This document shows, one piece after another, positions 17,534 to 32,430 of a stretch of DNA of 64,000 nt. The notes under the pieces were generated by a model. That model saw nothing but the letters and a program-made list of their open reading frames with translations, ran no database searches and was not told where the DNA came from. The stretch comes from Elusimicrobia bacterium GWC2_64_44 (GTDB lineage Bacteria; Elusimicrobiota; Elusimicrobia; Elusimicrobiales; UBA9959): NCBI GenBank assembly GCA_001799845.1, contig MGUG01000041.1, positions 62,001 through 126,000 on the forward strand, written 5' to 3'. Numbering within the stretch: position 1 is the first letter of the stretch; each line of letters starts with the position of its first letter. Both the position numbers and the translations under genes were made by a program.

Positions 17534-17564
17534 TTGACAAGTAGTTTAGTATATGCTAAACTAC
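17534..17564 (+). promoter_or_regulatory. Promoter overlapped by a palindromic ArsR-type operator
   Basis: TTGACA (17534-17539), 17 bp and TAAACT (17557-17562) form a promoter. Between and over them is the inverted repeat GTAGTTTAG-N6-CTAAACTAC (17541-17564) with perfect 9-bp arms. Only 7 nt separate the -10 from ATG 17570. A repressor bound here would block RNA polymerase, so the regulator encoded immediately downstream probably controls itself and the sulfur genes behind it. Confidence 0.8.
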
Positions 17565-17569
17565 TATAC

Positions 17570-17872
17570 ATGAATAAAGCCATGCTCGCCAAGGCGAACG
17601 GGATAGCCGCCATGCTCTCCTGCATCGCCCATCCGTTCCGCCTTATGATGATCTGCATGCTCCTGAAGAAGGAGATGTTCGTACACGAGCTGATAGAGAA
17701 GCTCGGCACGACCAAGGGGAACATCTCGCAGCATCTGCGCGTCCTCGCGGACCGCGGCCTCATCCAGAAGCGCCGCGACGGCAACCGGATCTTCTACAGC
17801 ATCAAGGACCCCAACCTGGCGGAACTGATAACCAGGATCAAGAAGCTGTATTGCCCCAATTTCGATCTATAA
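17570..17872 (+). CDS. ArsR-family repressor, persulfide-sensor type
   Basis: The 100-residue protein is a winged-helix ArsR regulator; TTKGNISQHLRVLADRGLI (47-65) is the recognition region. Cys29, in RLMMICML, and Cys95, in KKLYCPN, are 66 residues apart, the spacing of the disulfide/tetrasulfide pair in the sulfane-sulfur sensors SqrR (Cys41/Cys107) and BigR. RLMMICML also matches the helix in which that first cysteine sits. There is no CxC metal site of the arsenic type. I infer a reactive-sulfur sensor that releases the operator at 17541-17564. An in-frame TTG at 17534 lies in the promoter and is rejected as a start. Confidence 0.85.
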   Translation: MNKAMLAKANGIAAMLSCIAHPFRLMMICMLLKKEMFVHELIEKLGTTKGNISQHLRVLADRGLIQKRRDGNRIFYSIKDPNLAELITRIKKLYCPNFDL

Positions 17873-17891: not shown

Positions 17892-18137
17892 ATGGACCTT
17901 AGCCAGATAAAACCCGCAAAGACGGTGGACGCGCGCTCGATGGCCTGCCCCGGCCCTCTGCTGGAGGCCAAGAAGGGCATAGCCGGCGTGCCGGTGGGCG
18001 GCGTGCTGGAGATACAGTCCGGCGACAAGGGCAGCCGCGAGGATATCCCCGCCTGGTGCGGCAAGTCGGGGCACGAGTATATGGGCGTGCTCGAGCGCGA
18101 CGGCTATGACAGCCTCTTCGTCACCCGCAAAAAGTAG
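17892..18137 (+). CDS. TusA/SirA-type sulfur carrier protein
   Basis: The 81-residue protein has the defining CPGP motif in ARSMACPGPLLEAKK, whose cysteine carries persulfide sulfur between proteins. AGGAGG precedes the ATG 20 bp after the regulator. TusA-like proteins feed sulfur to tRNA thiolation, cofactor synthesis or, with DsrE-type partners, to dissimilatory sulfur metabolism; the DsrE-family genes at 23136 and 23839 favour the last. A second cysteine (PAWCGKSG) is not part of the usual motif. Confidence 0.88.
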   Translation: MDLSQIKPAKTVDARSMACPGPLLEAKKGIAGVPVGGVLEIQSGDKGSREDIPAWCGKSGHEYMGVLERDGYDSLFVTRKK

Positions 18138-18159
18138 CTGAACTCACGCGGCGTGTCCA

Positions 18160-18270
18160 GGGCAGGCGGCCCTTCGGGCACGCTATCTGGCGCATAGCGC
18201 CAGCGCTCCCCCTCGGCCCTCGCGCTACGCAGGCTCGGGCCTGCGGGAGGGCCCTCAGAACCACCTGCCC
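18160..18270. repeat. Dispersed palindromic intergenic repeat, copy 3
   Basis: This 111-bp element fills the gap between the TusA and MvhD genes. It is bounded by GGGCAGG (18160-18166) and CCTGCCC (18264-18270), has a central GCGCATAGCGC-type hairpin, and contains CGGCCCTCGCGCTACGC, matching copies at 7430-7543 and 50463-50564 (reverse strand). Its inner arms are more diverged than in the other two. It could fold in mRNA between the regulator/TusA part and the redox genes. Confidence 0.5.
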
Positions 18271-18308
18271 CGTCCGCGCCGCAAGCCTTGTATGGAGACT
18301 TCTTCCGT

Positions 18309-18689
18309 ATGACTCATCGGAAAATACTAATTATTACTACTAATCACAGCTCCTATCCGGGGGCGGACGCGGTTGGGCAGGCCCGGATGGGGTATGGGGC
18401 CAATACCTATATCATACGCGTGCCGGACCCGGTGATGTTCCCGGAGGATTTCTACCTGCGCGCCTACGAGAAGGGGATAGGCGGGATCATCATAATGTCC
18501 TCGGGGTCCGATTGTCCTTACGAGGGCGCTTATGAGCGGCTCTCCAAGCGCATCGCGCGGGTCTATGAGCAGATGCGGGCCAAGGGGATAGCGGTGAACC
18601 GCCTCAAGCTCACTACCATCTGCACCGTCTGCCGCGCGGCTTTCCTCAAGGAGATCTCGGAAATGGAAAAGGCGGTGGCCGTGATATGA
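18309..18689 (+). CDS. MvhD-type hydrogenase iron-sulfur subunit
   Basis: The 126-residue protein belongs to the MvhD/FrhD domain family, small [2Fe-2S] proteins that pass electrons from hydrogenases or other dehydrogenases to HdrA. Cysteines in SGSDCPYEG and TTICTVCRAAF are the expected ligands; some classical members have five. ATG 18309 is used because the earlier in-frame start is a TTG with no ribosome site. It overlaps the QmoA-like gene by 4 bp, so its partner is almost certainly the Hdr/Qmo proteins. No hydrogenase gene lies in the window. Confidence 0.85.
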   Translation: MTHRKILIITTNHSSYPGADAVGQARMGYGANTYIIRVPDPVMFPEDFYLRAYEKGIGGIIIMSSGSDCPYEGAYERLSKRIARVYEQMRAKGIAVNRLKLTTICTVCRAAFLKEISEMEKAVAVI

Positions 18690-19972
18690 GCCTGGAAAAA
18701 ATAGAAGTGGACGCGCTGGTGGTGGGCTCCGGCATAGCCGGCCTGCAGAGCGCGCTGGACCTGGCCGACCAGGGCTACTCGGTGGCCATAGTGGAGAGGA
18801 ACCCGAGCATCGGCGGCAAGATGATCAGCCTGAGCAAGGTGTTCCCGACGCTCGACTGCGCGAGCTGCATCACCACGCCGCGCATGGCCAGCGTTTCGCA
18901 TCACCCGCGCATCACCACGCTCACTTACAGCACCGTGGACGCCATAAGGCGCGAGGGCAAGACTTTCACCGCCGCGATAACCCGCAAGCCGCGCTATATA
19001 GATGAAAAAGAATGCATCTCCTGCAAGCGCTGCGAGGAGGTGTGCCCTGTCTTCCTGCCCGACGAATACGAACAGGGAATGGGCGCGAAGAAGACCATCT
19101 CCATACCTTTCACCAACGCCATACCGCAGTTCCCGGTCATGCACCCGGAGCATTGCATACGCTGCGGCGCCTGCGCCCGCGCCTGCCCCAAGGACTGCAT
19201 AGACTTTTTGCAGGAGCCCGCGCCCGTAGAGATAAAGGCCAAGGCGGTAATACTCGCCACCGGTTACGAGACCACGCCGATGACGGCCAAGAAACAGTAC
19301 GGCCTGGGCGCGCTGCCTAACGTGATCTCGCCGATGGCGGCCGAGCGGCTGCTGGCCCCGCACGGCCCTTACGGCCGCGTGCTGCGCCCCTCCGACGGCA
19401 TGACGCCGGGTTCTATCGCCTACGTGCAGTGCGCGGGCTCGCGCGACAAGAGTATCGGCATTCCTTATTGCTCGCGCGTCTGCTGCATGTACGCCATCAA
19501 GCAGGCCATACTGCTGTCCGGCTCGCTGCCCATAGCCGACATCACCATCTACTACATGGACATCCGCGCCTTCGGCAAAGGCTACGAGCAGTTCTATAAC
19601 AACGCCCGGGCCATGGGCATAAACTTTGTGAAGGCCAAGGTGGCCCGCATCACCGAGGACGAGAATCATAACCCCGTCGTGCGCATAGAAAAACAGGAAG
19701 GCACCTCGGGCCCGGAGGAGATAAAACACGAACTTGTCATTCTCTCGCAGGGCCTCGTGCCGGCCTGCGACGGCTCCAAGTTCGGTCTCGGCGCGGCCAA
19801 TAACGAATTCGGCTTCGTGAAACTGTCCGACGAAACGGTCTCCTCCGCCGTCACCGACGGCGCGGGCGTGTTCGTGGCCGGCACCGCCAAGGGGCCGCGC
19901 GACATACCCGACTCCGTGGTGGACGCCGGCTCCGCCGCTATAGAAGCCGCCAGTTATATAAGGAGGCTGTGA
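18686..19972 (+). CDS. qmoA: QmoA-like/HdrA-type flavoprotein
   Basis: The 428-residue protein has an FAD loop GSGIAG (14-19), an internal DCASC site (Cys58, Cys61) typical of the HdrA family, and two [4Fe-4S] ferredoxin clusters: Cys110/113/116/120 and Cys157/160/163/167. QmoA of sulfate reducers is a short HdrA-like subunit that exchanges electrons between menaquinol and APS reductase. No aprAB or dsrAB is present here, so the acceptor is unknown. It overlaps its neighbours on both sides by 4 bp. Confidence 0.87.
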   Translation: MSLEKIEVDALVVGSGIAGLQSALDLADQGYSVAIVERNPSIGGKMISLSKVFPTLDCASCITTPRMASVSHHPRITTLTYSTVDAIRREGKTFTAAITRKPRYIDEKECISCKRCEEVCPVFLPDEYEQGMGAKKTISIPFTNAIPQFPVMHPEHCIRCGACARACPKDCIDFLQEPAPVEIKAKAVILATGYETTPMTAKKQYGLGALPNVISPMAAERLLAPHGPYGRVLRPSDGMTPGSIAYVQCAGSRDKSIGIPYCSRVCCMYAIKQAILLSGSLPIADITIYYMDIRAFGKGYEQFYNNARAMGINFVKAKVARITEDENHNPVVRIEKQEGTSGPEEIKHELVILSQGLVPACDGSKFGLGAANNEFGFVKLSDETVSSAVTDGAGVFVAGTAKGPRDIPDSVVDAGSAAIEAASYIRRL

Positions 19973-21762
19973 TGAACGAGAAAATTACCGAAGCGGCCTC
20001 TAAAGATAACTACCGCCAGGAGCCAAAGGTCGGGGTCTACGTCTGCCATTGCGGCGGCAACATCTCCGACATCATAGACGTGAAGGCCGTGGCCGAGGCG
20101 CTCTCCAAATACCCCGGCGTGACGGTGGCCCGCGAGTACGCCTTCATGTGCTCCTCCAACGGCCAGGACCTCATCGCCGAGGACATAAAGAACCTGGGCG
20201 TAAACCGCACCGTGGTGGCGGCCTGCTCGCCGAGCCTCCACGAACTGACTTTCCGCAACGTGCTGCAGCGCGCCGGCGTGAACCCGTACCTGCACGAGCA
20301 CGTCAATATCCGCGAGCAGGCGAGCTGGGTGCATAAGCTCGACAAGGCCGGCGCTACGGCGAAGGCCATAAAGCTGGCGCAGGCCGGCGTGGAGAAGGTG
20401 CTGCGCAAGGACGCCCTGAACGCCATCCGCGTGGCGGCAGAACAGAGGGTGGCCGTGATCGGCGGCGGCGTCTCCGGCATGCGCGCGGCGCTTAGCGCCG
20501 CGGGCAAGGGCCTCGAGGCCGTTATCATAGAGAAAGGCCCGCGCCTGGGCGGCAAGCTGCTCGAGCTCGGCAAAATGTATCCCTCCGGTGAGACGGGCCC
20601 GGCCATAGTGAAGAAGCTTTCAGACCTGGTGCTCGCCGAGGGGAAGATAACGGTGCACACGTCCGCCGAGATAGACTTCGTCAGCGGCTTCGTCGGCAAC
20701 TTCAAGATCAACTTTAAGAAAACCGACGGGAGTTCCGCCCAGGTGAAGGCCGGCGCGATAGTGATGGCCACCGGCTACGAGCATTATAAGCCCGCCAAAG
20801 GCGAGTTCGGCTACGGCGAAGACGCCAACGTGGTCACGCTGCCGGAGTTCATCTCCCTGCTCAAAAACTCTCCGGCGGACCGGCTGGAATACTCCGGGCG
20901 TGAGATAAAGAGCCTTGCCCTTATACATTGCGTGGGCTCGCGCCAGGTGGAGGGGGTCCATAAACCCCAGGCCGACGGCAGGCTAAACGACTACTGTTCC
21001 CGGACCTGCTGCACTTCCGCCCTGCACACCGTCAACCAGCTGAAGGACAAGTACCCCGGCGTGCGCGTTTACGATATCTACCGCGACATACGCACCTACG
21101 GCATGAAGCACGAAGAGTATTACGACAAAGCCTCGAAGGACGGCGTGCTGTTCATGCGGCATAACGAGGCCGACCAGCCCGTGGTGACCTCCGACCGCAC
21201 CGGCCATACCGTAAAAGTAAAGGACGTGCTGACCTGGGGTGAGGAGCTGGAATTCAAGGCGGACCTCGTGGTGCTGGTCACCGGCATGACGCCCGCGGAT
21301 ATCACGCTCATCAAATCCCAGCTCAAGCTGCCGTCCGGCGCGGACCGCTTCCTGCAGGAAGTGCACCCCAAGCTGCGCCCCGTGGAGCTGGCCAACTCCG
21401 GCATCTTCGTCGCCGGGGCCGCGCAGTACCCCATGGATTCCACCGAGGCCATGGCCTCGGCCGGCACCGCCGCCGCCAAGGCCGCCATACTGCTGGCCGA
21501 GCCGGACATCCCGCTGGAGCCTTTTGTGGCCGTGGTGGACGAACACAAATGCACCGGCTGCGGCCTGTGCCCCGCCGAGTGTTCCTATGACGGCGCGCTG
21601 ATGATGGGCGAGCATAACGGCAAGAAGGTCGCCGTAGTGAACCCGGCGCTGTGCAAGGGCTGCGGCGCCTGCGTGGCGGTCTGCCCGACCCGCGCCATAA
21701 ACGTGGCCGGCTGGACGCTGGACCAGTTCGACGCGATGGTGGACGCCATCGCGAAGGAATAA
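19969..21762 (+). CDS. HdrA/QmoB-like flavoprotein with C-terminal ferredoxin
   Basis: The 597-residue protein has the HdrA N-terminal domain (VYVCHCGGNISD, Cys26 and Cys28), an FAD-binding Rossmann fold starting VAVIGGGVSGM at about residue 161, the paired CSRTCCTSAL cysteines, and a C-terminal two-cluster ferredoxin from Cys528 (KCTGCGLCPAEC, then LCKGCGACVAVCP). HdrA is the electron-bifurcating flavin subunit of heterodisulfide reductases. With the smaller QmoA-like partner and the QmoC-like membrane subunit it should form a Qmo/Hdr-like complex. QmoB in sulfate reducers is longer, with an MvhD domain at its end; here MvhD is a separate gene. Confidence 0.88.
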   Translation: MMNEKITEAASKDNYRQEPKVGVYVCHCGGNISDIIDVKAVAEALSKYPGVTVAREYAFMCSSNGQDLIAEDIKNLGVNRTVVAACSPSLHELTFRNVLQRAGVNPYLHEHVNIREQASWVHKLDKAGATAKAIKLAQAGVEKVLRKDALNAIRVAAEQRVAVIGGGVSGMRAALSAAGKGLEAVIIEKGPRLGGKLLELGKMYPSGETGPAIVKKLSDLVLAEGKITVHTSAEIDFVSGFVGNFKINFKKTDGSSAQVKAGAIVMATGYEHYKPAKGEFGYGEDANVVTLPEFISLLKNSPADRLEYSGREIKSLALIHCVGSRQVEGVHKPQADGRLNDYCSRTCCTSALHTVNQLKDKYPGVRVYDIYRDIRTYGMKHEEYYDKASKDGVLFMRHNEADQPVVTSDRTGHTVKVKDVLTWGEELEFKADLVVLVTGMTPADITLIKSQLKLPSGADRFLQEVHPKLRPVELANSGIFVAGAAQYPMDSTEAMASAGTAAAKAAILLAEPDIPLEPFVAVVDEHKCTGCGLCPAECSYDGALMMGEHNGKKVAVVNPALCKGCGACVAVCPTRAINVAGWTLDQFDAMVDAIAKE

Positions 21763-21763
21763 T

Positions 21764-22057
21764 ATGGCCGACGTGAAACAAATAGCCGAACAGCTCAAGA
21801 AACTTACCGGACTCCGCGGTCCCGTGCCGGTTGAATTGCGCGACCGCGTGGCCGCGCAGAACAAGGCGCAGAGGGCCGTGCTCGACGCGCTGAAGGCGGG
21901 CCCCAAGACCGTGCCGGAACTCGCCGCCGCGGCGGGCCTGCCGCAAGATCAGGCGCTCTGGTACGTGGCCGCCCTGCGCAAATACGGCAAGATAGCCGAC
22001 GTGCCTGGCAAGGGCGATTATCCGAAGTACGAACTCAAGGGAGGGGAAGCCAAATGA
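21764..22057 (+). CDS. Small winged-helix-like protein in the Hdr/Qmo operon
   Basis: The 97-residue protein has a predicted winged helix (AVLDALKAGPKTVPELAAAAG followed by WYVAALRKYGKI), then a short wing and KYEL. It lacks cysteines, so it is not an electron carrier. It lies 1 bp after the HdrA-like gene and overlaps the QmoC-like gene by 4 bp. It may be an accessory or regulatory protein of the complex; I do not recognise a named family. Confidence 0.7.
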   Translation: MADVKQIAEQLKKLTGLRGPVPVELRDRVAAQNKAQRAVLDALKAGPKTVPELAAAAGLPQDQALWYVAALRKYGKIADVPGKGDYPKYELKGGEAK

Positions 22058-23136
22058 AGGTGAACCCCGAGCTCATAGACGAGATAAAGAAATACGGCGC
22101 TTTCGACATTTCCGCGTGTTTCAACTGCGGCAACTGCACCGCGGTCTGCCCGCTTTCAAAAGAAGACGCCTCTTTCCCGCGCAAACTGATCCGCGCCGGC
22201 CACGTGGGCATGGAAGAGAAGGTAGCTTCGGCGCTGGAGCCGTGGCATTGCTACTACTGCGGAGAGTGCTCCGCCACCTGCCCGCGCGAGGCCCAGCCCG
22301 GCGAGTACATGATGGCCCTGCGCCGCTACCTCATAGCTAAATACGACATCACCGGGCTGTCGAAAATATTCTATAAGACCGGCTGGCTGCAGGCCTGGCT
22401 GGCCGCCGGCCTGCTGGCGGCGTTCTACTGGCTCTACAGTTCTTACACCGGCGACTTCGGCGCGCTCGCCGGCAAGATAGAACTGGCCTTCCCCGTCTAC
22501 GTCACCATCGCGCTGGGCGGCTACATCATAAACATGTACCGCCACACTATAGTTAAGCCCCTCGGCGGTATCAAGGCCTCGCTCAAGCCCGCGCATATCT
22601 ACGATACCCTGGTGCACGGCTTCACGCAGAAGAACTTCAACGGCTGCGAAGAGACCGACTGGACCCGCTGGATAGCCCACCTGCTCGTCATGAGCGGCTA
22701 CGTGCTGACGCTGCTGATCTCCAACCTGCATCTGCTCTCGCCGCTCGACAAGCAGTACGTGGCGTTCGGCCCGGTGAGTCTGCTGGTGTGGTACTCGGGG
22801 CTCGCCATCCTCGTAGGCGGCGGCATTATGTCCTCGCGGCGCGTTCTCAAAAGCGCGCAGTCCAGCAAGTTCTCGCACCCGAGCGACTGGCTGTTCGTGG
22901 TGACGATGTTCCTGATAGGCGCGAGCCTCTTGTTTACGCATTTCCTCAACGTGGCCTACGGCCCGGGCGACCCTCTGCTCGCCAAGATCTACCGCCTGAA
23001 TATAGCCATAGAGACGGTGTGGATAATCCTCATTGTGCCGTTCACCAAGTGGATACACATCTTCTTCCGGCCGCTCGCCGTCTATTTTCAGCATGTCAGA
23101 AAGGAGGCTGAAGCCGGCACGGCCTTCAGCATATAA
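22054..23136 (+). CDS. qmoC: QmoC-like protein: HdrC ferredoxin fused to a membrane cytochrome-b-like domain
   Basis: The first 80 residues bind two [4Fe-4S] clusters (Cys22/25/28/32 and Cys66/69/72/76). The rest has about five membrane helices with histidines in MYRHTIV, IAHLLVM, NLHLLSP and FTHFLN that could bind heme b, as in the HdrE/NarI-type domain. QmoC anchors the Qmo complex and connects it with menaquinone. The 360-residue length matches QmoC. It links the soluble flavoproteins encoded just upstream to the quinone pool used by PyrD. Confidence 0.88.
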   Translation: MKVNPELIDEIKKYGAFDISACFNCGNCTAVCPLSKEDASFPRKLIRAGHVGMEEKVASALEPWHCYYCGECSATCPREAQPGEYMMALRRYLIAKYDITGLSKIFYKTGWLQAWLAAGLLAAFYWLYSSYTGDFGALAGKIELAFPVYVTIALGGYIINMYRHTIVKPLGGIKASLKPAHIYDTLVHGFTQKNFNGCEETDWTRWIAHLLVMSGYVLTLLISNLHLLSPLDKQYVAFGPVSLLVWYSGLAILVGGGIMSSRRVLKSAQSSKFSHPSDWLFVVTMFLIGASLLFTHFLNVAYGPGDPLLAKIYRLNIAIETVWIILIVPFTKWIHIFFRPLAVYFQHVRKEAEAGTAFSI

Positions 23137-23495
23137 TGGAAAAAATAGTTTACGTCGCCACGCATTTCAAGGATTCCCCTGAGAAGGCCATAATCCCCTT
23201 CGTGCTGGCCAACGCCAGCTACGCCATGGACGCCCAGCCTGTGATCATCCTGCAGGCCGAGGGCGTGAACCTGGCCGTAAAGGGCAAAGCCGCGGAGATA
23301 ACCCACCCGCCCTTCGACCCGCTGGAAAAACTTTTTGATTCCTACGCCGGGCAGGGCGGCCAACTGCTGGTCTGCTCGCCGTGCCTGAAGGCCCGCAACT
23401 ATACGGAGGCCGATTTAGTGCCGAACGCGAAAATAGTCGGCGCCGCAAAGATAATCGAGGAAGTCACGGGCGCAAAGGCCGTGATGTCATATTGA
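23136..23495 (+). CDS. DsrE-family protein
   Basis: The 119-residue protein has the DsrE/F fold pattern: an opening strand KIVYVATHFKDSPEKA, a central ALVFLAN-like helix region and LLVCSPCLKARNY, whose cysteines are in the position of the sulfur-carrying Cys in DsrE proteins. The start codon overlaps the last base of the QmoC-like gene (TAATG). DsrE proteins accept sulfane sulfur from TusA; both are encoded in this operon. Confidence 0.82.
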   Translation: MEKIVYVATHFKDSPEKAIIPFVLANASYAMDAQPVIILQAEGVNLAVKGKAAEITHPPFDPLEKLFDSYAGQGGQLLVCSPCLKARNYTEADLVPNAKIVGAAKIIEEVTGAKAVMSY

Positions 23496-23496
23496 T

Positions 23497-23829
23497 ATGA
23501 GAAAAGCGGGCATAATACGCTGTCAGCAGACCGAGGATATCTGCCCGGGCACCACGGACTTCAAGTGCGCGGCCGCGGGCAAGGGCTCTTTCACCGAGAC
23601 CGGCCCCGTCGAGATAGTCGGTTTCGTCTCCTGCGGCGGCTGCCCCGGCAAGCGCGCGGTGATGCGCGCGGAGGAGCTTGTGGCGCGCGGCGCGGAAGTT
23701 ATAGCGCTGGCCTCCTGCATAAAGAACGGCAATCCCGTCGGCTTTCCCTGCCCGCACGCCGAGGTCATGAAGACGGCGATACTTAAAAAAGTCGGCGAGA
23801 AAGTGAAATTTCTGGATTACACGCATTAA
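23497..23829 (+). CDS. CGGC-domain protein
   Basis: The 110-residue protein has the family motif SCGGCPGK in the middle, an N-terminal RCQQTEDICPG and a late CPHAEVM, giving several conserved cysteines that may bind metal or carry sulfur. CGGC-domain proteins are small putative metal-binding proteins of anaerobes. It starts 1 bp after the DsrE-like gene. Its role is unknown; the context suggests handling of persulfide or an iron-sulfur site. Confidence 0.82.
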   Translation: MRKAGIIRCQQTEDICPGTTDFKCAAAGKGSFTETGPVEIVGFVSCGGCPGKRAVMRAEELVARGAEVIALASCIKNGNPVGFPCPHAEVMKTAILKKVGEKVKFLDYTH

Positions 23830-23838
23830 GGAGAAACT

Positions 23839-24390
23839 ATGGCTGACATTAAAGAACTGGAAGCGCAGATAGCGGCCCTCAAGGCCGACGTGGCGACCCT
23901 CAAGGCCAACGCCCCCGAGGACAAGCTCTCCATGGTAGTGATGAGCGGCGACATGGACAAGCTGCTGGCCTCGTTCATCATCGCGACGGGCGCCGCGGCC
24001 ATGTTCGAGAAGGTGGTGATGTTCTTCACTTTCTGGTCCATCCCGGCCCTGAAGGACCCGAACAAGACCGTTTCCAAGGACGTGGTCTCCAAGATGTTCG
24101 AGGTGATGCTCCCGAACGGCGCCGACGGCACCAAGCTCAGCCAGATGAACATGGGCGGCATGGGCAAGGCCATGATCAAGAGCATTATGAAGAAGCACAA
24201 CGTGATGACGCTCGCTCAGCTGATGAAGACGGCCGCCGACTCCGGCGTGCAGATCTACGTCTGCCAGATGAGCATGGACCTGATGGGCTACAAGATGGAA
24301 GAGATGATAGATTACCCCAACCTCAAGAGCGCCGGCGTGGGCAAGTTCCTGGCCGAGGCCGGTACCAGCAAGTCTTCGCTGTTCATATAG
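23839..24390 (+). CDS. DsrE2-type membrane-associated sulfur carrier
   Basis: The 183-residue protein starts with a coiled coil (about residues 3-26) followed by a DsrE/DsrF-like domain with two hydrophobic segments (KLLASFIIATGAAAM and VVMFFTFWSIPAL). Cys142 in IYVCQMSMDLMGY is the conserved cysteine of DsrE2 proteins. DsrE2 accompanies TusA and rhodanese in sulfur oxidisers as a membrane-linked persulfide carrier. A GGAGAAACT ribosome site precedes it. It is the last soluble sulfur gene before the porin. Confidence 0.85.
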   Translation: MADIKELEAQIAALKADVATLKANAPEDKLSMVVMSGDMDKLLASFIIATGAAAMFEKVVMFFTFWSIPALKDPNKTVSKDVVSKMFEVMLPNGADGTKLSQMNMGGMGKAMIKSIMKKHNVMTLAQLMKTAADSGVQIYVCQMSMDLMGYKMEEMIDYPNLKSAGVGKFLAEAGTSKSSLFI

Positions 24391-24414
24391 TTTTGGAAAA
24401 TTAACGGAGGCAAA

Positions 24415-25611
24415 ATGAAAAAATCGGTTAACCTGTTAGCTGCGGCGTTCGTAATTACCGGGCTTTCGCTGAATGCTTTCGCCACCAACGGCGACAACAT
24501 GATAGGCGTGGGCCCCACTTCCCGCGCCATGGGCGGCACGGGCATGGCTGCCCCGCAGGACGCCATCAGCGCCATCTTCTCCAACCCGGCCGCGCTGGGC
24601 CAGGTCAAAGGCGACAGTTTCAACTTTGCCGGCACCTGGTTCGCGCCGGCGGTGAAAGCTACCGTGGTCTCCGGCATGGCCGGCAACTGGAAGGTCAACA
24701 GCAAGGACCAGCCTTACGCCATCCCGGCTATCGGCCTGGCCACCCCGGTCAACGACAGGTTCACCTTCGGCATCGCCGCGTATGGCGTGTCCGGTATGGG
24801 TGTGGATTACCGCAACATGGACCCGATGAAGACCAACACCAAGGTCTCCGTCATGAAGTTCGTGCCCGCCCTCGCCTACAAGAACGGAGCGCTCTCCTAC
24901 GGCGCCGGCCTCGACATAGACTACCAGGCCGCCGACTTCGGCAAGGGCCTCTCGCACGGTTACGCGCTGGGCCTGCGCCTCGGCGCGGCTTACGAGACCG
25001 AGAAGTGGAATTTCGGCGCCACCTACGTCACCCCGCAGAACGTGACGCATGAGCGCATCTACGACTTCGACGGCGAAGGCGCCATGGGTTCCTTCAACGG
25101 CTATGACCCGCTGAAGCTCGAGAATCCCGCCCAGTACGGCGCCGGCGTAGCCTACAAAGGCCTTGATAAATGGCTGTTCACCGGCGAGGTGAAATACCTT
25201 GACTGGGGCAATGCCGACGGCTACAGCGACTTCGACTGGGAGTCCCAGACCGTCTTCGGCCTGGGCGTCCAGAACAAGACCACCGAAAAGCTGACGCTGC
25301 GCGCCGGCTGGAACTACGGCAAGAACCCGGTGAAAGAGCACCAGAACTTCAACCCGATGGGCACTACCGACGTGCAGGGCATGGCGATGAACACCTTCGG
25401 CTACGAGTATTTCCGCGTCATCGGCTTCCCCGGCATCGTGGAACACCACCTCACCCTGGGCGCGGGCTACGAGTTCTCGCCCAAGTTCGCGCTGAACGTC
25501 GGCTACAAGAAAGCCTTCTCTACGACGATCAAGGAAGTCTCCTCCGACGGTACTCTGAAGTCTGAACTTTCCGAGACCGCCTACGACTTCGGCCTCACCT
25601 TCAAGTTCTAA
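24415..25611 (+). CDS. FadL/OmpP1-type outer-membrane transport protein
   Basis: The 398-residue protein has a signal peptide (about 1-22, ending NAFA), the N-terminal FadL-type hatch region (GPTSRAMGGTGMAAPQDA and SNPAALG) and a long series of amphipathic beta strands ending in the aromatic residue Phe (LTFKF), as needed for barrel insertion. FadL proteins admit hydrophobic compounds. At the end of a sulfur operon it may import hydrophobic sulfur compounds or polysulfide, which is inference. A strong terminator follows. Confidence 0.87.
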   Translation: MKKSVNLLAAAFVITGLSLNAFATNGDNMIGVGPTSRAMGGTGMAAPQDAISAIFSNPAALGQVKGDSFNFAGTWFAPAVKATVVSGMAGNWKVNSKDQPYAIPAIGLATPVNDRFTFGIAAYGVSGMGVDYRNMDPMKTNTKVSVMKFVPALAYKNGALSYGAGLDIDYQAADFGKGLSHGYALGLRLGAAYETEKWNFGATYVTPQNVTHERIYDFDGEGAMGSFNGYDPLKLENPAQYGAGVAYKGLDKWLFTGEVKYLDWGNADGYSDFDWESQTVFGLGVQNKTTEKLTLRAGWNYGKNPVKEHQNFNPMGTTDVQGMAMNTFGYEYFRVIGFPGIVEHHLTLGAGYEFSPKFALNVGYKKAFSTTIKEVSSDGTLKSELSETAYDFGLTFKF

Positions 25612-25631
25612 GGGACCTGAAGCCAAAGAAA

Positions 25632-25656
25632 GGCCCCGCTCCGGCGGGGCCTTTTT
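25632..25656 (+). terminator. Terminator of the sulfur operon
   Basis: GGCCCCG and CGGGGCC arms (25632-25638 and 25645-25651) are followed by TTTTTATTT. The -10-like TAGAAT of the next gene begins 7 nt later. Confidence 0.88.
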
Positions 25657-25674: not shown

Positions 25675-27315
25675 ATGCAACTGCAAGGTTCAGGGGCCAT
25701 GCTCTGGCGCAAGGCCGCAGTCATAGGCAGCCTGTGGGCCGCGTCGGAGATAGTCCTCGGCAGCTTTCTAAAGAACGCGCATATACCTTTCGCCGGGCTG
25801 CTGCTCACCGGCATAGGCGTAGCCATACTCGTGGCGGGGCACCGGCTCTGGCCTGAGAAGGGCCTGCTCTGGCGCGCAGGGCTGGTCTGCGCGGCTATGA
25901 AGTCGGTCTCGCCGAGCGCGGTACTGGTTAGCCCCATGGTGGCCATCTTCGCGGAGGGCCTCTGCGCCGAACTCGGCGTGCGGCTGCTCGGCGGCAACGC
26001 AGCCGGCTATCTGCTTGCCGGCGGGCTCGCCATGAGCTGGGGGCTGCTGCACAAGATAGGAAAACTCTACATCTTCTACGGCCCCGAGGCGCTGGCGGTA
26101 TACGCGCGCGGGCTGGAGAAACTGCGGGCCTGGCTGGGCAGCCCCGGCGGGGCCTGGGAGCCGCTCGCGGCGCTGCTGGCCGGATATTTCCTTGCAGGCG
26201 CCGCGGCCGCACTTATCGGGATGCGGGCCTCCTCCTCCGGAGCTATCGTGCCTGTGCAGAGCCGGGGCGCGGATGTCTTCAAGCCCCGCTCCGGCGCGTC
26301 CGCCCCTTCTTACTCCGTATTCTTTTTTATAGTTCATCTGGCCGCCGTGGCGGCGCTGATGGTGTCCGGCAAGGTGCGCCTGGAACTGGCCGCCGCGCTG
26401 TCGGCCGGCTACGGGCTGGCCTGCGCTGTCTTCTACCGGCGCTCGGCCGCGCTGCTGGGCCGGCGCGGCCTTTGGGCCGGCCTTCTTGTCGCCTCGGTGC
26501 TGGCCGGCTGGCTGCTCGGCGACTGGGGCTCTGGCTTGCGCATGGCGGCGCGCGCCTTTGCGCTGACGCTGGGCTTCGCGGCGATCGCGCAGGAGCTGCT
26601 GAACCCGGCGGTGCGGCTGGCGCTCGAGCGCGCGGCCGGGCGGGCCTTCTTCGAGACGCTGGAATACGCCTTCGCCTCGCTGCCGCTGGTTCTGGGGTCG
26701 CTGCCGTCGGGCCGGGACATGCTGCTGCGGCCGGCGGCCTCGCTGCGCACTGTCATAGGCCGGGCGCCATGCCTGCTGGAGCGCGAGCGCCGCAGGGTGT
26801 ACATAATAACGGGCGGGCACGGTTCCGGTAAAAGCACTCTCGTGAAAGGCGTTGCCGGCCTGCTGCAAGAGCGCGGTTTGCGTCCCGCCGGGATAATGGC
26901 CGAAGGGCTTTGGCGGGCCGGCATCCGGGACGGCTTTGACCTGGTGGACCTCTCATCCGGCGTGAAAACTCCGCTCTGCCGCCGGGAAACCGGCGGAAAA
27001 ATACGCGCCGGCGAGTTTCGCTTCTTCGAGGGCGGGCTGGCCGCCGGGCGGCTGGCGCTGTCTGCTGAAAGCGTACGGCCTGCCGCGGCCGTCTTCCTGG
27101 ATGAAATAGGTTTCCTGGAGCTGGAGGGCGGCGGGTGGGCGCCTGAGCTGACCGCGCTGCTGGGGGCCGGCGGTCCGCCGGTTATCGTGGTTGTACGCGA
27201 CTACCTGCTGGAGAAAGTCCTGGCCCGCTGGCGCCTGAAACCTTCCGCGGTCTGGAAAGCCGGAAAGACCGGCCCTGCTGACGCAATGACGCTGCTGGCC
27301 GCTGCCATTGACTAG
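25675..27315 (+). CDS. Membrane protein fused to a THEP1-type NTPase
   Basis: The 546-residue protein has about eight to ten hydrophobic helices in residues 1-350, and a soluble C-terminal P-loop domain. Walker A is GGHGSGKS (380-387) and Walker B is FLDEIGFLEL, with Asp476-Glu477, the DEIG form typical of THEP1/NTPase_1 proteins, which hydrolyse nucleotides or act on RNA ends. RAGEFRFFEGGL is another family-like segment. THEP1 proteins are normally about 180-residue soluble enzymes, so a membrane-anchored fusion is unusual. TAGAAT (25663-25668) lies 6 nt before ATG, giving a leaderless mRNA. It overlaps the promoter of the DUF134 gene. Confidence 0.75.
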   Translation: MQLQGSGAMLWRKAAVIGSLWAASEIVLGSFLKNAHIPFAGLLLTGIGVAILVAGHRLWPEKGLLWRAGLVCAAMKSVSPSAVLVSPMVAIFAEGLCAELGVRLLGGNAAGYLLAGGLAMSWGLLHKIGKLYIFYGPEALAVYARGLEKLRAWLGSPGGAWEPLAALLAGYFLAGAAAALIGMRASSSGAIVPVQSRGADVFKPRSGASAPSYSVFFFIVHLAAVAALMVSGKVRLELAAALSAGYGLACAVFYRRSAALLGRRGLWAGLLVASVLAGWLLGDWGSGLRMAARAFALTLGFAAIAQELLNPAVRLALERAAGRAFFETLEYAFASLPLVLGSLPSGRDMLLRPAASLRTVIGRAPCLLERERRRVYIITGGHGSGKSTLVKGVAGLLQERGLRPAGIMAEGLWRAGIRDGFDLVDLSSGVKTPLCRRETGGKIRAGEFRFFEGGLAAGRLALSAESVRPAAAVFLDEIGFLELEGGGWAPELTALLGAGGPPVIVVVRDYLLEKVLARWRLKPSAVWKAGKTGPADAMTLLAAAID

Positions 27316-27361
27316 CGAGCTTCAACTTGTTAATATTAGTTATTGGCATATGCCAATAACT
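27308..27361 (+). promoter_or_regulatory. Promoter and perfect palindromic operator of the DUF134 cluster
   Basis: TTGACT (27308-27313), 17 bp, TAATAT (27331-27336). Immediately behind it the 24-bp sequence at 27338-27361, with half-site AGTTATTGGCAT, is a perfect palindrome that ends at the base before ATG 27362. A protein bound there would cover the transcription start and the start codon. The DUF134 product is the likely binder. Confidence 0.8.
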
Positions 27362-27682
27362 ATGACCCGTCCCCTGAAAATAAGAAAAGTCACCTCCGCG
27401 CCGCGCGCCTATTATTTCAAACCGCGGGCGGTGCCGCTCTGCGAGCTGGAGGAGATAACCCTGCAGCTCGACGAGCTGCAGGCGCTGGAGCATGCCGACC
27501 TGAAGCGCCGGGGGCAGGCGGACGCGGCCGCCGCCATGCGGGTCTCGCGGCAGACCTTCGGCAATATACTCGCTTCCGCCAGGCGGAAGCTGGCCGACGC
27601 CGTGGTGAACGGCAAGGCCCTAAAGATAGAGGGCGGCCCGGTGGAACTGAGCCGGCCGCACTGCGGAGGAAAACACAAATGA
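27362..27682 (+). CDS. DUF134 family DNA-binding protein
   Basis: The 106-residue protein begins TRPLKIRKV followed by YYFKPRAVPL, the usual start of DUF134 proteins, which fixes the ATG at 27362 rather than an earlier in-frame ATG at the palindrome. The C-terminal half is a sigma-region-4-like helix-turn-helix (AAAAMRVSRQTFGNILASAR). DUF134 genes commonly stand next to NifX/NifB-type metal-cluster genes in anaerobes, as here; the next gene overlaps by 4 bp. Autoregulation through the palindrome is inferred. Confidence 0.88.
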   Translation: MTRPLKIRKVTSAPRAYYFKPRAVPLCELEEITLQLDELQALEHADLKRRGQADAAAAMRVSRQTFGNILASARRKLADAVVNGKALKIEGGPVELSRPHCGGKHK

Positions 27683-28044
27683 ACATCTGCGTACCCGTGG
27701 AAAACAATGACGGCCTGAAGTCCAAGGTCTTCGGCCATTTCGGCAGCGCGCCTTTCTTCGCCATCTGCGAGGTGGAAAGCGCCAAGGTGGAGTTCCTGGA
27801 TAACGGCAACCAGCACCATGAGCACGGCCAGTGCAACCCGTTGGGGGCCATAGCCGGCAAAAAAGTCTCCGCCATACTCGTCGGGGGCATAGGGGCGCGC
27901 GCGCTCCAGCACCTGAACGCGGGCGGCATAAAGGCCTACCGCTCGCCGCAGGGGCCGCTCTCCCAGGCGCTTGAAATGTTCAAGAAGCGGGAACTGCCCG
28001 AGATACTGCCCACCGACTGCTGCCAGGGGCATGGCTGCCATTAA
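27679..28044 (+). CDS. Dinitrogenase iron-molybdenum cofactor family protein (NifX-like)
   Basis: The 121-residue protein has the RNaseH-like NifX/NifB C-terminal fold: MNICVPVENNDG, SKVFGHFGSAPFFAI and ILVGGIGARAL are family signatures. The C-terminus ends DCCQGHGCH, a Cys/His-rich tail able to bind metal. No nitrogenase genes are present, so, like many such proteins in anaerobes, it probably carries or inserts an iron-sulfur or other metal cluster. It overlaps both neighbours. Confidence 0.88.
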   Translation: MNICVPVENNDGLKSKVFGHFGSAPFFAICEVESAKVEFLDNGNQHHEHGQCNPLGAIAGKKVSAILVGGIGARALQHLNAGGIKAYRSPQGPLSQALEMFKKRELPEILPTDCCQGHGCH

Positions 28045-28444
28045 CCACCGCCTGCACGGCCACTGCGTGGCCTGCGGGCCTGAGAACGCCATTGGCCTGC
28101 GCCTGAAGTTCAGCCCGCAGGCCGACGGTTCCGTGGAAGGCGCGGCTTTCTGCGCCAAGGCCCTTACAGGTTACGACGGGCTGCTGCACGGCGGCGTGGC
28201 CGCCCTGATGCTCGATAGCGCCATGACCAACTGCCTGTTCGCGGCCGGAGTAACGGCCCTTACCGGGGAGCTGGCGCTAAAGTACAGGGCCCCGGTTAAA
28301 ATAGGCCGGGCAGTAGCGCTTAAAGCCTGGATAGAGAAGGATCACGACCCTCTGTTTTTATTGCGGTCCGAGCTAAGCCAGGACGGCGCGCTGAAAGTCT
28401 CCGGGGAAGCGAAATTCATGCGCAGCGCCGCCGCGGGGGAATGA
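28031..28444 (+). CDS. PaaI-type hotdog thioesterase
   Basis: The 137-residue hotdog protein has the family helix with GLLHGGVAALMLDSAM and the GELALKYRAPVKIGR strand. PaaI-type enzymes hydrolyse acyl-CoA thioesters. The ATG at 28031 is preferred; it overlaps the NifX-like gene by 14 bp. An N-terminal HCVACGPEN pair of cysteines is common in this subgroup. Its substrate and its link to the surrounding metal-cluster proteins are unknown. Confidence 0.85.
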   Translation: MAAINHRLHGHCVACGPENAIGLRLKFSPQADGSVEGAAFCAKALTGYDGLLHGGVAALMLDSAMTNCLFAAGVTALTGELALKYRAPVKIGRAVALKAWIEKDHDPLFLLRSELSQDGALKVSGEAKFMRSAAAGE

Positions 28445-28806
28445 TGGAAGACAGGAAAATGGCTTTAGAAGAAGCCCTTAAAACCTATGCCGGCCGCCTG
28501 AACGATCCGGACGCGTCCGCCTCTGTCACCGGCCCCTGCGGCGACACGATGGAGTTCTACCTCAATATAAGCGACAACAGGGTTTCCGGCATACGTTTCC
28601 ACGCCGACGGCTGCGGTTACACCTCCGCCTGCGGGGCCGTGGCCGCCTTCTATGCCGACGGGCGCCGGCTGGAAGAGGCCATGTTCGTCTCTCCCGGGCT
28701 GATCCTGAAGACCCTGGGAAACGTCCCGGAGGACCACCGACACTGCGCCATCCTCGCCGCTACCACGCTATACAAAGCGCTGGCGGACCATCTGCTGAAG
28801 GACTGA
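28441..28806 (+). CDS. NifU/IscU-type iron-sulfur scaffold protein
   Basis: The 121-residue protein keeps the IscU active-site set: Cys33 and Asp35 in GPCGD, Cys58 in DGCGYT, and His101-Cys102. An extra Cys64 is close by. Such scaffolds build [2Fe-2S] clusters with a cysteine desulfurase; none is encoded in the window. It is a short N-domain-only form, overlaps the thioesterase gene by 4 bp and stands 6 bp before the NapH-like gene, consistent with delivering clusters to it or to the NifX-like protein. Confidence 0.87.
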   Translation: MMEDRKMALEEALKTYAGRLNDPDASASVTGPCGDTMEFYLNISDNRVSGIRFHADGCGYTSACGAVAAFYADGRRLEEAMFVSPGLILKTLGNVPEDHRHCAILAATTLYKALADHLLKD

Positions 28807-28812
28807 CATGTA

Positions 28813-29952
28813 ATGATGAAGCACTTAAGAACTTTCGCCTCGGCTGCGGGGCTGGCGGCGTTGGTGATAGGCGGGTCGCTGCTGTCCTCCGGCCTGTGGG
28901 GGGAAAAACCTGAAAAAGCCGGAGCCGCGGAACTGCGGCTCGTTTATACTCCCGGGATGACGGCGGCGCAGTTCGCCGAGGCCAACGCCCTGCCCGGCGA
29001 GGTGGCCGCCGCGGCCTTCAACAGCCGCGGCTCCATGCCGTACTACGACGCAGACAAACTGCCGCCGGACGGCCTGCGCGCTTCTGTGGAGCGTGAGCTG
29101 GCCCTCCATAACGAGCACGCGTCCAAGAACTGGCGCAAGATAGCGCTGAAGTTCGTAATGTGGTTCGCCTTCCTGGGAGTAGTGTTCACGCTGCTGCGGC
29201 GCGGCCTGGTGACGGGTGTGCTGCGCAACTGGCTCTATTTTGCCTCGGCGCTGCTCTTCGGCGTGGCGCTGGGCTCCGACCCCAGCCCTATGGGTACGGT
29301 GAAGGACGCTATCGTGCTTTACGCGGGCAGCGGCGCTGTTTTCCCGCCCCGCCTGATCGCTTTCGGCGTTTTTCTGCTGCTGGTCGTGCTGGCCAACAAG
29401 TTCATCTGCTCCTGGGGCTGCCAGCTCGGCGTGCTGCAGGACCTGCTGTTCCGCTTCGGCCGGAGCGGCGGCCTGAAGCAGTACAAGCCGCCTTTCTCCG
29501 TCACCAATACAGTGCGCGTGCTGGCGCTGGCCGCTGTGATCGTCTCCGCCTTTCTGGGCAGCGACATTATCGGGGCGGTAGACCCGTTCAAGATCTATAA
29601 CCCGGTGATCCTGAGCCTCTGGGGCTGGGCCTTCGTCACGCTGCTGCTGGCGGCAAGCCTATTCGTCTACCGGCCCTGGTGCCACCTGTTCTGCCCCTTC
29701 GGCCTCGCCGGCTGGCTGGCGGAAAAGATCAGCGTTTACCATGTGACCGTGGCTTACGACAAGTGCGCGGCCTGCGGCGCCTGCGAGAGGGCCTGCCCTT
29801 CCACGGTAATGGGCGCGATACTGAAGCGCGACCGGGCTATACCCGACTGCTTCTCCTGCGGCGACTGCCTGGCCGCCTGCCCGCACGGGGCCGTCTCGTT
29901 CTCGGCCGAACGCCGCCAGGTGCCGCCGCCTGGCAAATTCGCAAAAAGCTAG
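28813..29952 (+). CDS. NapH/polyferredoxin-type membrane iron-sulfur protein
   Basis: The 379-residue protein has an N-terminal span, a periplasmic segment of about 80 residues, then four or five helices with the CSWGCQLGVLQD and YRPWCHLFCPFG motifs typical of NapH/NosR/RdxB proteins, and a C-terminal ferredoxin with two CxxCxxCxxxCP clusters (KCAACGACERACP, DCFSCGDCLAACP). It should move electrons between quinol and a partner across or along the membrane. Two ATG codons (28813 and 28816) are possible. It closes the DUF134 cluster. Confidence 0.85.
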   Translation: MMKHLRTFASAAGLAALVIGGSLLSSGLWGEKPEKAGAAELRLVYTPGMTAAQFAEANALPGEVAAAAFNSRGSMPYYDADKLPPDGLRASVERELALHNEHASKNWRKIALKFVMWFAFLGVVFTLLRRGLVTGVLRNWLYFASALLFGVALGSDPSPMGTVKDAIVLYAGSGAVFPPRLIAFGVFLLLVVLANKFICSWGCQLGVLQDLLFRFGRSGGLKQYKPPFSVTNTVRVLALAAVIVSAFLGSDIIGAVDPFKIYNPVILSLWGWAFVTLLLAASLFVYRPWCHLFCPFGLAGWLAEKISVYHVTVAYDKCAACGACERACPSTVMGAILKRDRAIPDCFSCGDCLAACPHGAVSFSAERRQVPPPGKFAKS

Positions 29953-30324: not shown

Positions 30325-31464
30325 ATGAGGAAAATCATTGTTTTAGCGTTGTTGTCGGGAGTTTGCGGCGCCGCCCTGGCCCAGGAGGCCGGCACGCCGC
30401 CGCAGGGCCTGCGCGGCACCCCAGCCAATCTGCCGGACATCAGCGTGATAGGCGTTATCGAGGGTCATACCAGTTCAAACAAGGCCGACGACACCCGCGA
30501 CAAATTGGAGTTCAGCGAGGTGGAGACGGCCTTCCAGGGCTATATCTACCCGGAGATGAAGGCCGACGTGTTCCTGGCCCTTCACAAGCACGGCACGGAG
30601 TACGAAAGCGAGATCTGCGAGGCCAAGGTATCTTTCCTGCGCCTGGCCGACGGGCTGTCCGCAGAAGTGGGTAAGGTGAACGCCGAGTTCGGCAAGCTGA
30701 ACAAGGCGCACACTCATACCCGCCTGATGATAGACCAGCCGGCGGTACTGACCAACTTCCTGGGCACGCACGCCTTTAACCCGCAGGGCGCGGCGCTCAA
30801 GTACCTGCTGCCGCTGCCTTTTTACGCGCAGGCGCAGGCAGGCGCCTGGAACATGGCCGGCCACGAGCATCACGTGGAGGGAGACAATACCGCCGAAGTG
30901 CTGGACGTGGATCAAAGCACCGTTACGGTGGTGCTGGCCCCGGAGGAGACCGAGGACTTCTCGCCGGCGGGCAAGGTGTACACCGCACGCCTCAATATGT
31001 CTTTCCCGCTCGGCTCCGGAAGCGAACTGGAGCTGGGCGGCAGCGCCCTCAAGGGCAAAGGCAGCCATTGGGAGCATCACGAGGACAATATAAAGATCGC
31101 CGGCGCGGACTTCACGCTGAAGTTCTGGCCCGACGCCTACCGGCGCTTTACGCTGCAGGGAGAATATATGCGGCTCACGCGTGAGGTGCCCGTGGGCACG
31201 CTCAAGCGCGACGGCCTGTACCTGTTCGCCAATTACCGGGCCTCCAAGTACTGGAACTTCGGGGCGCGCTTCGACTACGCCGAGAACGCCTTCCCGGCTA
31301 TAACCTATGAGCGCGACTATGCCCTGATAGCCACGCGCAACCTCACCGAGACCACCACGCTGCGCGCCCAGTACAAGCATATCAACCTCTCCGGCGAGAA
31401 GACGGACGAGGGCTGGGTGCAGCTGACCTTCGGCCTTGGCCCGCACAGCCATGACCTGGAATAA
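30325..31464 (+). CDS. Outer-membrane barrel protein linked to metal uptake
   Basis: The 379-residue protein has a signal peptide (about 1-19), many amphipathic strands and a histidine-rich periplasmic or loop segment (MAGHEHHVEGD; another at HWEHHED; C-terminus GPHSHDLE). It ends in beta strands rather than a plug domain, so it looks like a porin. GGGAGGAG precedes ATG. The znuA-like gene starts 10 bp later, which suggests this is the outer-membrane port for the same metal, probably zinc. Confidence 0.78.
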   Translation: MRKIIVLALLSGVCGAALAQEAGTPPQGLRGTPANLPDISVIGVIEGHTSSNKADDTRDKLEFSEVETAFQGYIYPEMKADVFLALHKHGTEYESEICEAKVSFLRLADGLSAEVGKVNAEFGKLNKAHTHTRLMIDQPAVLTNFLGTHAFNPQGAALKYLLPLPFYAQAQAGAWNMAGHEHHVEGDNTAEVLDVDQSTVTVVLAPEETEDFSPAGKVYTARLNMSFPLGSGSELELGGSALKGKGSHWEHHEDNIKIAGADFTLKFWPDAYRRFTLQGEYMRLTREVPVGTLKRDGLYLFANYRASKYWNFGARFDYAENAFPAITYERDYALIATRNLTETTTLRAQYKHINLSGEKTDEGWVQLTFGLGPHSHDLE

Positions 31465-31474
31465 GGACGAAACC

Positions 31475-32380: not shown

Positions 32381-32389
32381 TCATACGTT

Positions 32390-32413
32390 CCCGGGGCGGC
32401 TGGCCGCCCCGGG
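32390..32413 (+). other. Strong hairpin without T-tract between binding protein and permease genes
   Basis: CCCGGGGCGGC (32390-32400) and GCCGCCCCGGG (32403-32413) form an 11-bp GC stem with a 2-nt loop. No T-run follows, so it may protect the upstream mRNA and raise binding protein over permease rather than terminate. Confidence 0.6.
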
Positions 32414-32430
32414 GCGTTCAAAAGGAATTT

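Follow-up and report, generated by a model that had tools for sequence, protein, structure and literature searches.

What reaction is served by a gene cluster that joins sulfur carriers to proteins of the Qmo and Hdr kind? Such a cluster lies in a 64,000-nucleotide stretch of contig MGUG01000041.1 from Elusimicrobia bacterium GWC2_64_44 (the whole stretch is hereafter called the window). A first-pass annotation had placed genes from tusA to fadL in one direction at 17892-25611 and had suggested that persulfide carried by TusA and DsrE2 is coupled to the quinone pool. Our analysis indicates that this coupling is the best reading of the locus, and we consider it about an even chance that the module encodes a reversible TusA-persulfide:quinone oxidoreductase, a membrane complex of the Qmo/Hdr kind. 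Its direction, which we infer together with its chemistry from the genes, is more likely reducing.

A conserved operon in Elusimicrobiota

The host genome (3.09 Mb, 60 contigs) is 90% complete, and its closest named relatives are Elusimicrobiota, such as Elusimicrobiales STC_50 with a QmoC identity of 93%. Profile searches recovered all of the genes from tusA to fadL on the + strand at the coordinates given above. The unit, however, begins further upstream than first drawn, since an SqrR/BigR-like arsR gene and a dedicated operator, both missed in the initial gene set, belong to it. The labels QmoA and HdrA were also loose, as flavoproteins A and B both score highest with HdrA models. The features are as follows.

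17534-17562, + strand: promoter TTGACA-17 nt-TAAACT with TG before the second hexamer (promoter-like site scan)
17543-17562, no strand assigned: operator palindrome AGTTTAG-N6-CTAAACT, overlapping the promoter spacer and second hexamer
17570-17872, + strand: arsR, SqrR/BigR-like repressor starting at ATG 17570 (Cys pair C41/C107, numbered from TTG 17534; profile, alignment)
17892-18137, + strand: tusA, sulfur carrier (PF01206, 3.5e-18; Cys19 invariant in 65/65 rows)
18309-18689, + strand: mvhD/flpD-like subunit (PF02662, 6.9e-16; probable ATG 18309, longest frame from TTG 18288)
18686-19972, + strand: HdrA-type flavoprotein A in the QmoA position, with Fe-S motifs (best with HdrA models; alignment, tree)
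19969-21762, + strand: HdrA-type flavoprotein B in the QmoB position, with N- and C-terminal Fe-S motifs (HdrA models; alignment, tree)
21764-22057, + strand: winged-helix subunit of 97 amino acids (predicted fold; fused to flavoprotein B in four other loci)
22054-23136, + strand: QmoC-like protein, HdrC part plus membrane cytochrome b (NF038018, 137 bits; 8 invariant Cys in 84/84 rows; conserved His)
23136-23495, + strand: dsrE-family sulfur carrier, optional (profile match; relatives)
23497-23829, + strand: CGGC-domain protein, optional (profile match; relatives)
23839-24390, + strand: DsrE2-family sulfur carrier (PF13686, 9.7e-45; Cys142 invariant in 53/53 rows)
24415-25611, + strand: FadL/TodX-type outer-membrane channel (PF03349, 1e-24)
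25629-25654, strand not specified: hairpin followed by a T-rich tail, probable transcript end (terminator-like site scan)

Two of these proteins stay below the cut-offs of their NCBI models: the 137 bits of QmoC compare with 300 for NF038018, and the DsrE2-family protein reaches 54.9 bits of the 210 for NF047629, while passing the Pfam DrsE_2 cut-off.

We searched 294 genomes of the phylum for QmoC. Strong full-length matches occur in 19 genomes, all of the window's family: 13 of the 22 listed in its genus, and 6 from three other genera. Four further genomes of the class hold a QmoC that is 36-39% identical and stands in another gene arrangement. We fetched 22 stretches, 18 from family relatives and four of this class-level type (L049-L052). 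The order arsR-tusA-mvhD-A-B-wHTH-qmoC-dsrE2-fadL (wHTH, winged-helix gene) is kept in all 18 family relatives as far as their contigs extend; tusA and arsR are each found in 15, the other three being contig ends, dsrE2 in 17 and fadL in 15. CGGC and DsrE, counted as members in the first-pass annotation, are indeed present in the window but occur in only 7 and 6 of the 18 relatives, respectively, and are thus optional; DsrE stands before or behind dsrE2.

In one relative (L045, genome G030), a cytochrome bd gene lies about 3.4 kb past the fadL of the module. A contig labelled Blastopirellula marina (L078) holds an Elusimicrobiota-type module, and is either misbinned or the result of transfer.

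A six-gene core across phyla

To the best 80 of 572 related loci from named genomes we added three further loci, giving 83 in all; every count from this survey is to be read as "at least". qmoC is present in all 83, flavoprotein B in 81, the winged-helix gene in 76, flavoprotein A in 70, and tusA and mvhD in 64 each. The contig ends too early in 17 of the 19 loci without tusA, and in L120 the only tusA counted lies behind qmoC. The core tusA-mvhD-A-B-wHTH-qmoC is complete in 58 of the 83 loci. Every one of these 58 has the genes on a single strand and in identical order, tusA first, and no gap between them exceeds 241 bases. Since the gene order is repeated in the 18 relatives and the core order in every complete locus, the arrangement in the window is not due to chance.

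By their record titles, the 58 complete loci belong to Elusimicrobiota, Bacteroidota (30), Chlorobiota, Chloroflexota, Krumholzibacteriota, Thermodesulfobacteriota, Myxococcota and Aminicenantes, and they also include one Planctomycetota-labelled bin and bins whose titles name no phylum. The cultured Labilibaculum euxinus A4 carries a complete core (L092). arsR and fadL lie outside this wide core, and a Crp/Fnr-type regulator family is found in 24 Bacteroidota loci instead of arsR.

Flank families were annotated on representatives only. Flanks in other phyla include a YeeE/YedE transporter (10 loci) and a rhodanese (9 loci). In 4 Bacteroidota loci the core is flanked by a molybdopterin subunit of PhsA/PsrA-like type that stays under the PhsA cut-off; it was annotated in L104, where Fe-S and NrfD genes follow it. 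In the Anaerolineae loci L127 and L138, TusA and YeeE/YedE-family genes come directly after the core together with weak DsrE-type genes, YeeE/YedE being annotated in L127 and assigned in L138 by membership in the same flank family. In L121, flavoprotein A and qmoC of the module seem to be split into several frames.

The module flavoproteins are distinct from apr-linked QmoA and QmoB

Canonical type I QmoABC shares with the module two HdrA-type flavoproteins, an MvhD domain and a QmoC made of HdrC and cytochrome b. We read apr-linked qmoABC loci in five genomes, and the module is also present in four of them (L149-L152). The qmo genes adjoin aprA in L149, L150 and L152, and lie about 2.5 kb from it in L151 and about 8 kb in L148. 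A flavoprotein tree of 70 rows was built with apr-linked references from these five loci only, and with neither sHdrA nor the named type II QmoAB of Ammonifex degensii and Vulcanisaeta moutnovskia among its rows. All 22 module A proteins fall into a single clade (100/100), as do the 22 module B proteins (100/99), and the ten apr-linked QmoA/QmoB are split off by a 100/100 branch. Module A groups with archaeal HdrA and with a fused type found in L049-L052 (other Elusimicrobiota families) and Methanoperedens L122, in which A and B are fused beside qmoC and form clades of their own.

Besides its own A and B clades, the module differs from canonical QmoABC in its separate MvhD, in a QmoC below the NF038018 cut-off, and in the added TusA, winged helix, sulfur carriers and SqrR-like regulator; no AprAB was found in the family. 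His188 and His275 (window numbering) occur in 22/24 and 19/24 module QmoC and in 0/5 apr-linked ones, in an alignment that is uncertain.

The accessible part of PMC10504309 mentions a type II QmoAB(C), without defining it, as nearer to HdrA than to the QmoAB of bacteria and as occurring in organisms that lack Dsr/Apr too; for this type it names no TusA link, winged helix or regulator. The module is a variant of the Qmo/Hdr kind and, set beside type II by description only, is perhaps a "type II Qmo".

Subunit composition

In canonical QmoB, MvhD forms a fused domain at the C-terminus, as checked in L148 and as described for T. dismutans in the part of PMC4911364 available to us. The separate mvhD of the module is thus best seen as a split part of QmoB, and the candidate reading as an extra subunit was rejected. 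At MvhD positions 47 and 81, Cys is found in 42/65 and 40/65 rows, but the window protein has Asp and Ala.

The winged-helix protein has no conserved cysteine in the alignment and no convincing sequence match in the PDB. AlphaFold models it (mean pLDDT 80) with a winged-helix fold that resembles ArsR/SmtB and Z-alpha folds in a general way only. Flavoprotein B of L100, L101, L112 and L114 ends in the same domain (E 7e-17 to 2.5e-21), and the predicted L101 fusion has confident domains joined by a low-confidence linker at 580-590. These four fusions argue that the winged-helix domain is part of the complex, a role that the first-pass annotation, in listing the protein, had not given it. We rejected a role as DNA-binding regulator of the operon because of these fusions and because arsR and its operator fill that place in the family.

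Flavoprotein A contains a Fer4_20 domain and a complete Pyr_redox_2 insert in L100, L112 and L125, and that of L114 looks the same by sequence. We take this insert to be a NAD(P)H unit of the GltD/NfnB type. Some versions of the module may accordingly couple to NAD(P)H.

A SqrR/BigR-like regulator and its operator

Like SqrR/BigR repressors, the window ArsR is an ArsR-family protein with a cysteine pair and a palindrome over its promoter. It aligns with BigR (3pqj) and the SqrR entries (6o8k-o) with both cysteines matched, and Cys is found in 19/23 rows at each of the two positions. The cysteine pair of SqrR/BigR has a sensing role. The window protein differs in heading this operon in the family and in scoring 77.5 bits with NCBIfam BigR, below the cut-off of 155, and its operator sequence is not known from SqrR/BigR repressors.

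The palindrome, with at most one mismatch, is found in 18 of the 19 module-bearing family genomes, with one site in 17 and two in G122; it was not found in G215, whose contig starts inside the operon. A reversed control pattern is absent from 16 of the 19 genomes, and the upstream DNA of relatives that share the palindrome is otherwise dissimilar. In all 18 genomes a site lies at an arsR start, with tusA next in 17. The arsR at the site in G110 is 57% identical, and no tusA was found within the 1.5 kb read there. The second site in G122 precedes fadL, which ties the FadL channel to the system.

Promoter-like sites number 6 in the region against a mean of 1.7 in shuffles. Transcription is expected to start at or beside the arsR ATG, so that the message is probably almost leaderless. 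The operon is probably persulfide-inducible through its own ArsR repressor, as judged from the cysteine pair and the operator.

Sulfur and electron-transfer genes in the genomes

In the window's own, 90% complete genome we found no aprA, no PF01077 (the sulfite-reductase fold) and no second full HdrA, and neither aprA nor dsrA exceeded its cut-off in any of the 19 module-bearing family genomes. The absence noted at first in the window extends, for aprA and the sulfite-reductase fold, to the own genome and, for aprA and dsrA over their cut-offs, to the family. The same holds in the own genome for lipoate-binding proteins, where the search for LbpA returned nothing but a GCV_H fragment of 23 bits that contains a stop; exactly one GCV_H match is found in 14 of the 19 family genomes. 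Besides QmoC itself, the own genome has no HdrC-type QmoC homologue at E 0.001. Among 18 genomes chosen from the 80 named loci, 4 have aprA over the cut-off, a fifth holds it as two pieces, and 3 have dsrA over the cut-off.

The CCG motif of HdrB is absent from the window, the scope within which CCG proteins were sought in this genome. In the related loci the CCG pattern is present in 4 of 7947 open reading frames: one on the minus strand of L062, two in L112 beyond the core and one in L122, none of them inside the module core. At L112:10806-15089, two proteins with CCG-like motifs are accompanied by more HdrA/QmoC-like pieces, perhaps a second Hdr-type set.

PF00384, searched in 8 genomes (7 of the family), is strong only in the own genome and in Labilibaculum, weak over the cut-off in G110, G028 and G225, below it in G204, and absent from G030 and G122. 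The one clear molybdopterin oxidoreductase of the own genome, its only PF00384 match over the cut-off, is a formate dehydrogenase, as it also reaches the cut-off for that enzyme; a second match there, of 20 bits, falls short. In L153 (G000:C52), a formate dehydrogenase alpha subunit with a NuoG-like N-terminal part is encoded in a single open frame of 1157 amino acids. COX1 is over the cut-off in 3 of the 19 family genomes.

A proposed mechanism and its alternatives

We then propose a model for the TusA-persulfide:quinone oxidoreductase. Sulfur would enter through the FadL channel or arise inside the cell, and would be loaded on DsrE2/DsrE and TusA. TusA-S-SH may dock on the HdrA-type flavoproteins (A and B with MvhD and the winged-helix subunit), and flavins and Fe-S clusters would carry two electrons to QmoC and the quinone, or back from them, in the reaction TusA-S-SH + 2e- + 2H+ = TusA-SH + H2S. 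The position of tusA at the head of the core and the invariant Cys19 of TusA and Cys142 of DsrE2 support this model. So do the ArsR with its operator and the second site before fadL in G122, the lack of aprA and dsrA matches in the family, the separate apr-linked qmo loci of four module genomes, the sulfur-related flank genes in other phyla and the identity of the own genome's PF00384 match. We found no siroheme, molybdopterin or CCG (non-cubane) site among the genes of the operon, so that such two-electron persulfide chemistry appears likelier than oxidation to sulfite.

The reaction could run either way. A quinol-dependent sulfur or persulfide reductase is a distinct, if tentative, possibility, favoured by the Psr-like neighbour genes in some loci and by an own genome in which no other sulfur reductase is clear. 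The reverse direction seems somewhat less likely and is itself doubtful; cytochrome bd and the SqrR-like switch speak for oxidation or detoxification.

Several points weigh against the reversible oxidoreductase. Cytochrome bd, found in all 19 family genomes (weakly in G110), is an available electron sink for oxidation, and SqrR/BigR regulators usually govern sulfide oxidation or detoxification. Judged by the potentials, menaquinol reduces persulfide poorly unless bifurcation or proton-motive force assists. Relatives of TusA and DsrE2 also act in biosynthesis. arsR and fadL were found in none of the 47 Bacteroidota loci, so that a persulfide switch is proposed here for the Elusimicrobiota family rather than for the wide core. 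Finally, module QmoC is not one clade in the QmoC tree, where apr-linked and fused-type QmoC fall between two module groups; one such tree left out L151, on a very long branch, and L131.

The alternative that survives best is a mainly oxidative or detoxifying role, in which sulfide or persulfide would be oxidised onto TusA/DsrE2 and electrons would flow through QmoC to quinone and cytochrome bd, as a cytoplasmic stand-in for SQR. Besides the regulator and the oxidase, the accessible part of PMC11129491 supports it, placing Labilibaculum SYP in a sulfide-tolerant group growing at up to 7 mM sulfide with genes for a "heterodisulfide reductase system". Another strain of the genus, L. euxinus A4, holds the module. 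However, the same part of PMC11129491 states that sulfide oxidation was not observed in culture for these strains, and the PhsA/PsrA-like family beside the core in 4 Bacteroidota loci points the other way. We regard this alternative as unlikely, though by no means slight.

A sHdr-like pathway without lipoate, in which TusA sulfane sulfur would become sulfite and electrons would reach quinone through QmoC, is improbable. The first-pass annotation remarked on a resemblance to both Qmo and sHdr, and TusA, DsrE and HdrA relatives occur together as in the sHdr loci of PMC6067878, to the extent that its text was available. As far as its available text goes, PMC8542988 describes a cluster of Candidatus Stygibacter (Cloacimonadota) simply as Hdr, with TusA, thiosulfate sulfurtransferase and sulfur transporter genes, and interprets it as sulfur oxidation; likened by description only, this cluster is possibly the same module. 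The module departs from sHdr in its membrane QmoC and, in the searches reported above, in lacking the CCG/HdrB motif, an LbpA-like gene and a second HdrC-type protein.

Part of a disproportionation route would fit the TusA, YeeE/YedE-family and DsrE-type genes directly behind the core in L127 and L138, since the YTD cluster of sulfur disproportionators, as described in the accessible part of PMC12998232, shares TusA and DsrE. That cluster is described there without HdrA/QmoC genes, unlike the module, and the same text holds none of the proposed markers, single or combined, to be unambiguous. The window operon has no yedE gene and the own genome yielded neither aprA nor PF01077, so that we consider such a route quite improbable for the window.

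A role in supplying biosynthesis with sulfur or selenium (tRNA thiolation, Fe-S, YedE/YedF-type selenium), instead of one in energy metabolism, is very improbable. Relatives of TusA and YedE have such roles, and the window TusA gives a weak match to TIGR03527 YedF, below its cut-off. A membrane cytochrome b subunit with two HdrA flavoproteins, a single operator locus in 17 of the 19 genomes, and the patchy presence within the genus (strong QmoC matches in 13 of 22 listed genomes) argue against it. An ordinary sulfate-reduction Qmo with aprAB elsewhere, suggested by the A-B-C layout with MvhD, can practically be dismissed: within the limits of a 90% complete genome and 18 relatives, it is refuted by the lack of aprA and dsrA matches and by the 100/100 branch that sets the apr-linked flavoproteins apart.

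Together, these results lead us to propose, tentatively, that the module is a previously undefined respiratory complex that uses neither molybdopterin nor siroheme nor non-cubane clusters for cytoplasmic respiration of sulfane sulfur, present in uncultured Elusimicrobiota, Bacteroidota, Chloroflexota, Krumholzibacteriota and others, and that versions with the NAD(P)H insert may bifurcate electrons. The module had been called possibly undescribed. It is not confined to this organism, and related sets are mentioned in passing in the accessible parts of the papers cited here. Within the accessible open-access literature (subscription papers, preprints and supplements lie outside it), we found no definition of the six-gene module or of its winged-helix subunit and regulator.

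Predictions of sulfur metabolism from genomes commonly rely on the genes of the Dsr, Apr, Sox, Psr and sHdr systems. If our reading holds, a recurring complex lies outside these usual gene lists, and some anaerobes counted as fermenters would trade electrons with the sulfur cycle. The idea is directly testable, given the fixed core order, the single-locus regulon in the family and the core in the cultured L. euxinus A4.

Other features of the region

The gap between tusA and mvhD (18138-18308) is GC-rich, strongly folding DNA. Related blocks occur in several relatives, some in opposite orientation, and resemble a repeated palindromic element; no further copies were found in the window (2 matches at two mismatches, against a chance mean of 4). 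Terminator-like sites in the region number 5, not above the shuffles' mean of 8.6. Downstream of the operon, 25675-29952 encodes NTPase_1, DUF134, NifX-like, NifU-like and NapH-like ferredoxin genes, several of which recur downstream in relatives. Further on, ZnuA/ABC-3 metal uptake genes and a minus-strand AcrB-type efflux gene are found at 31436-33246 and 38127-41381 of the window.

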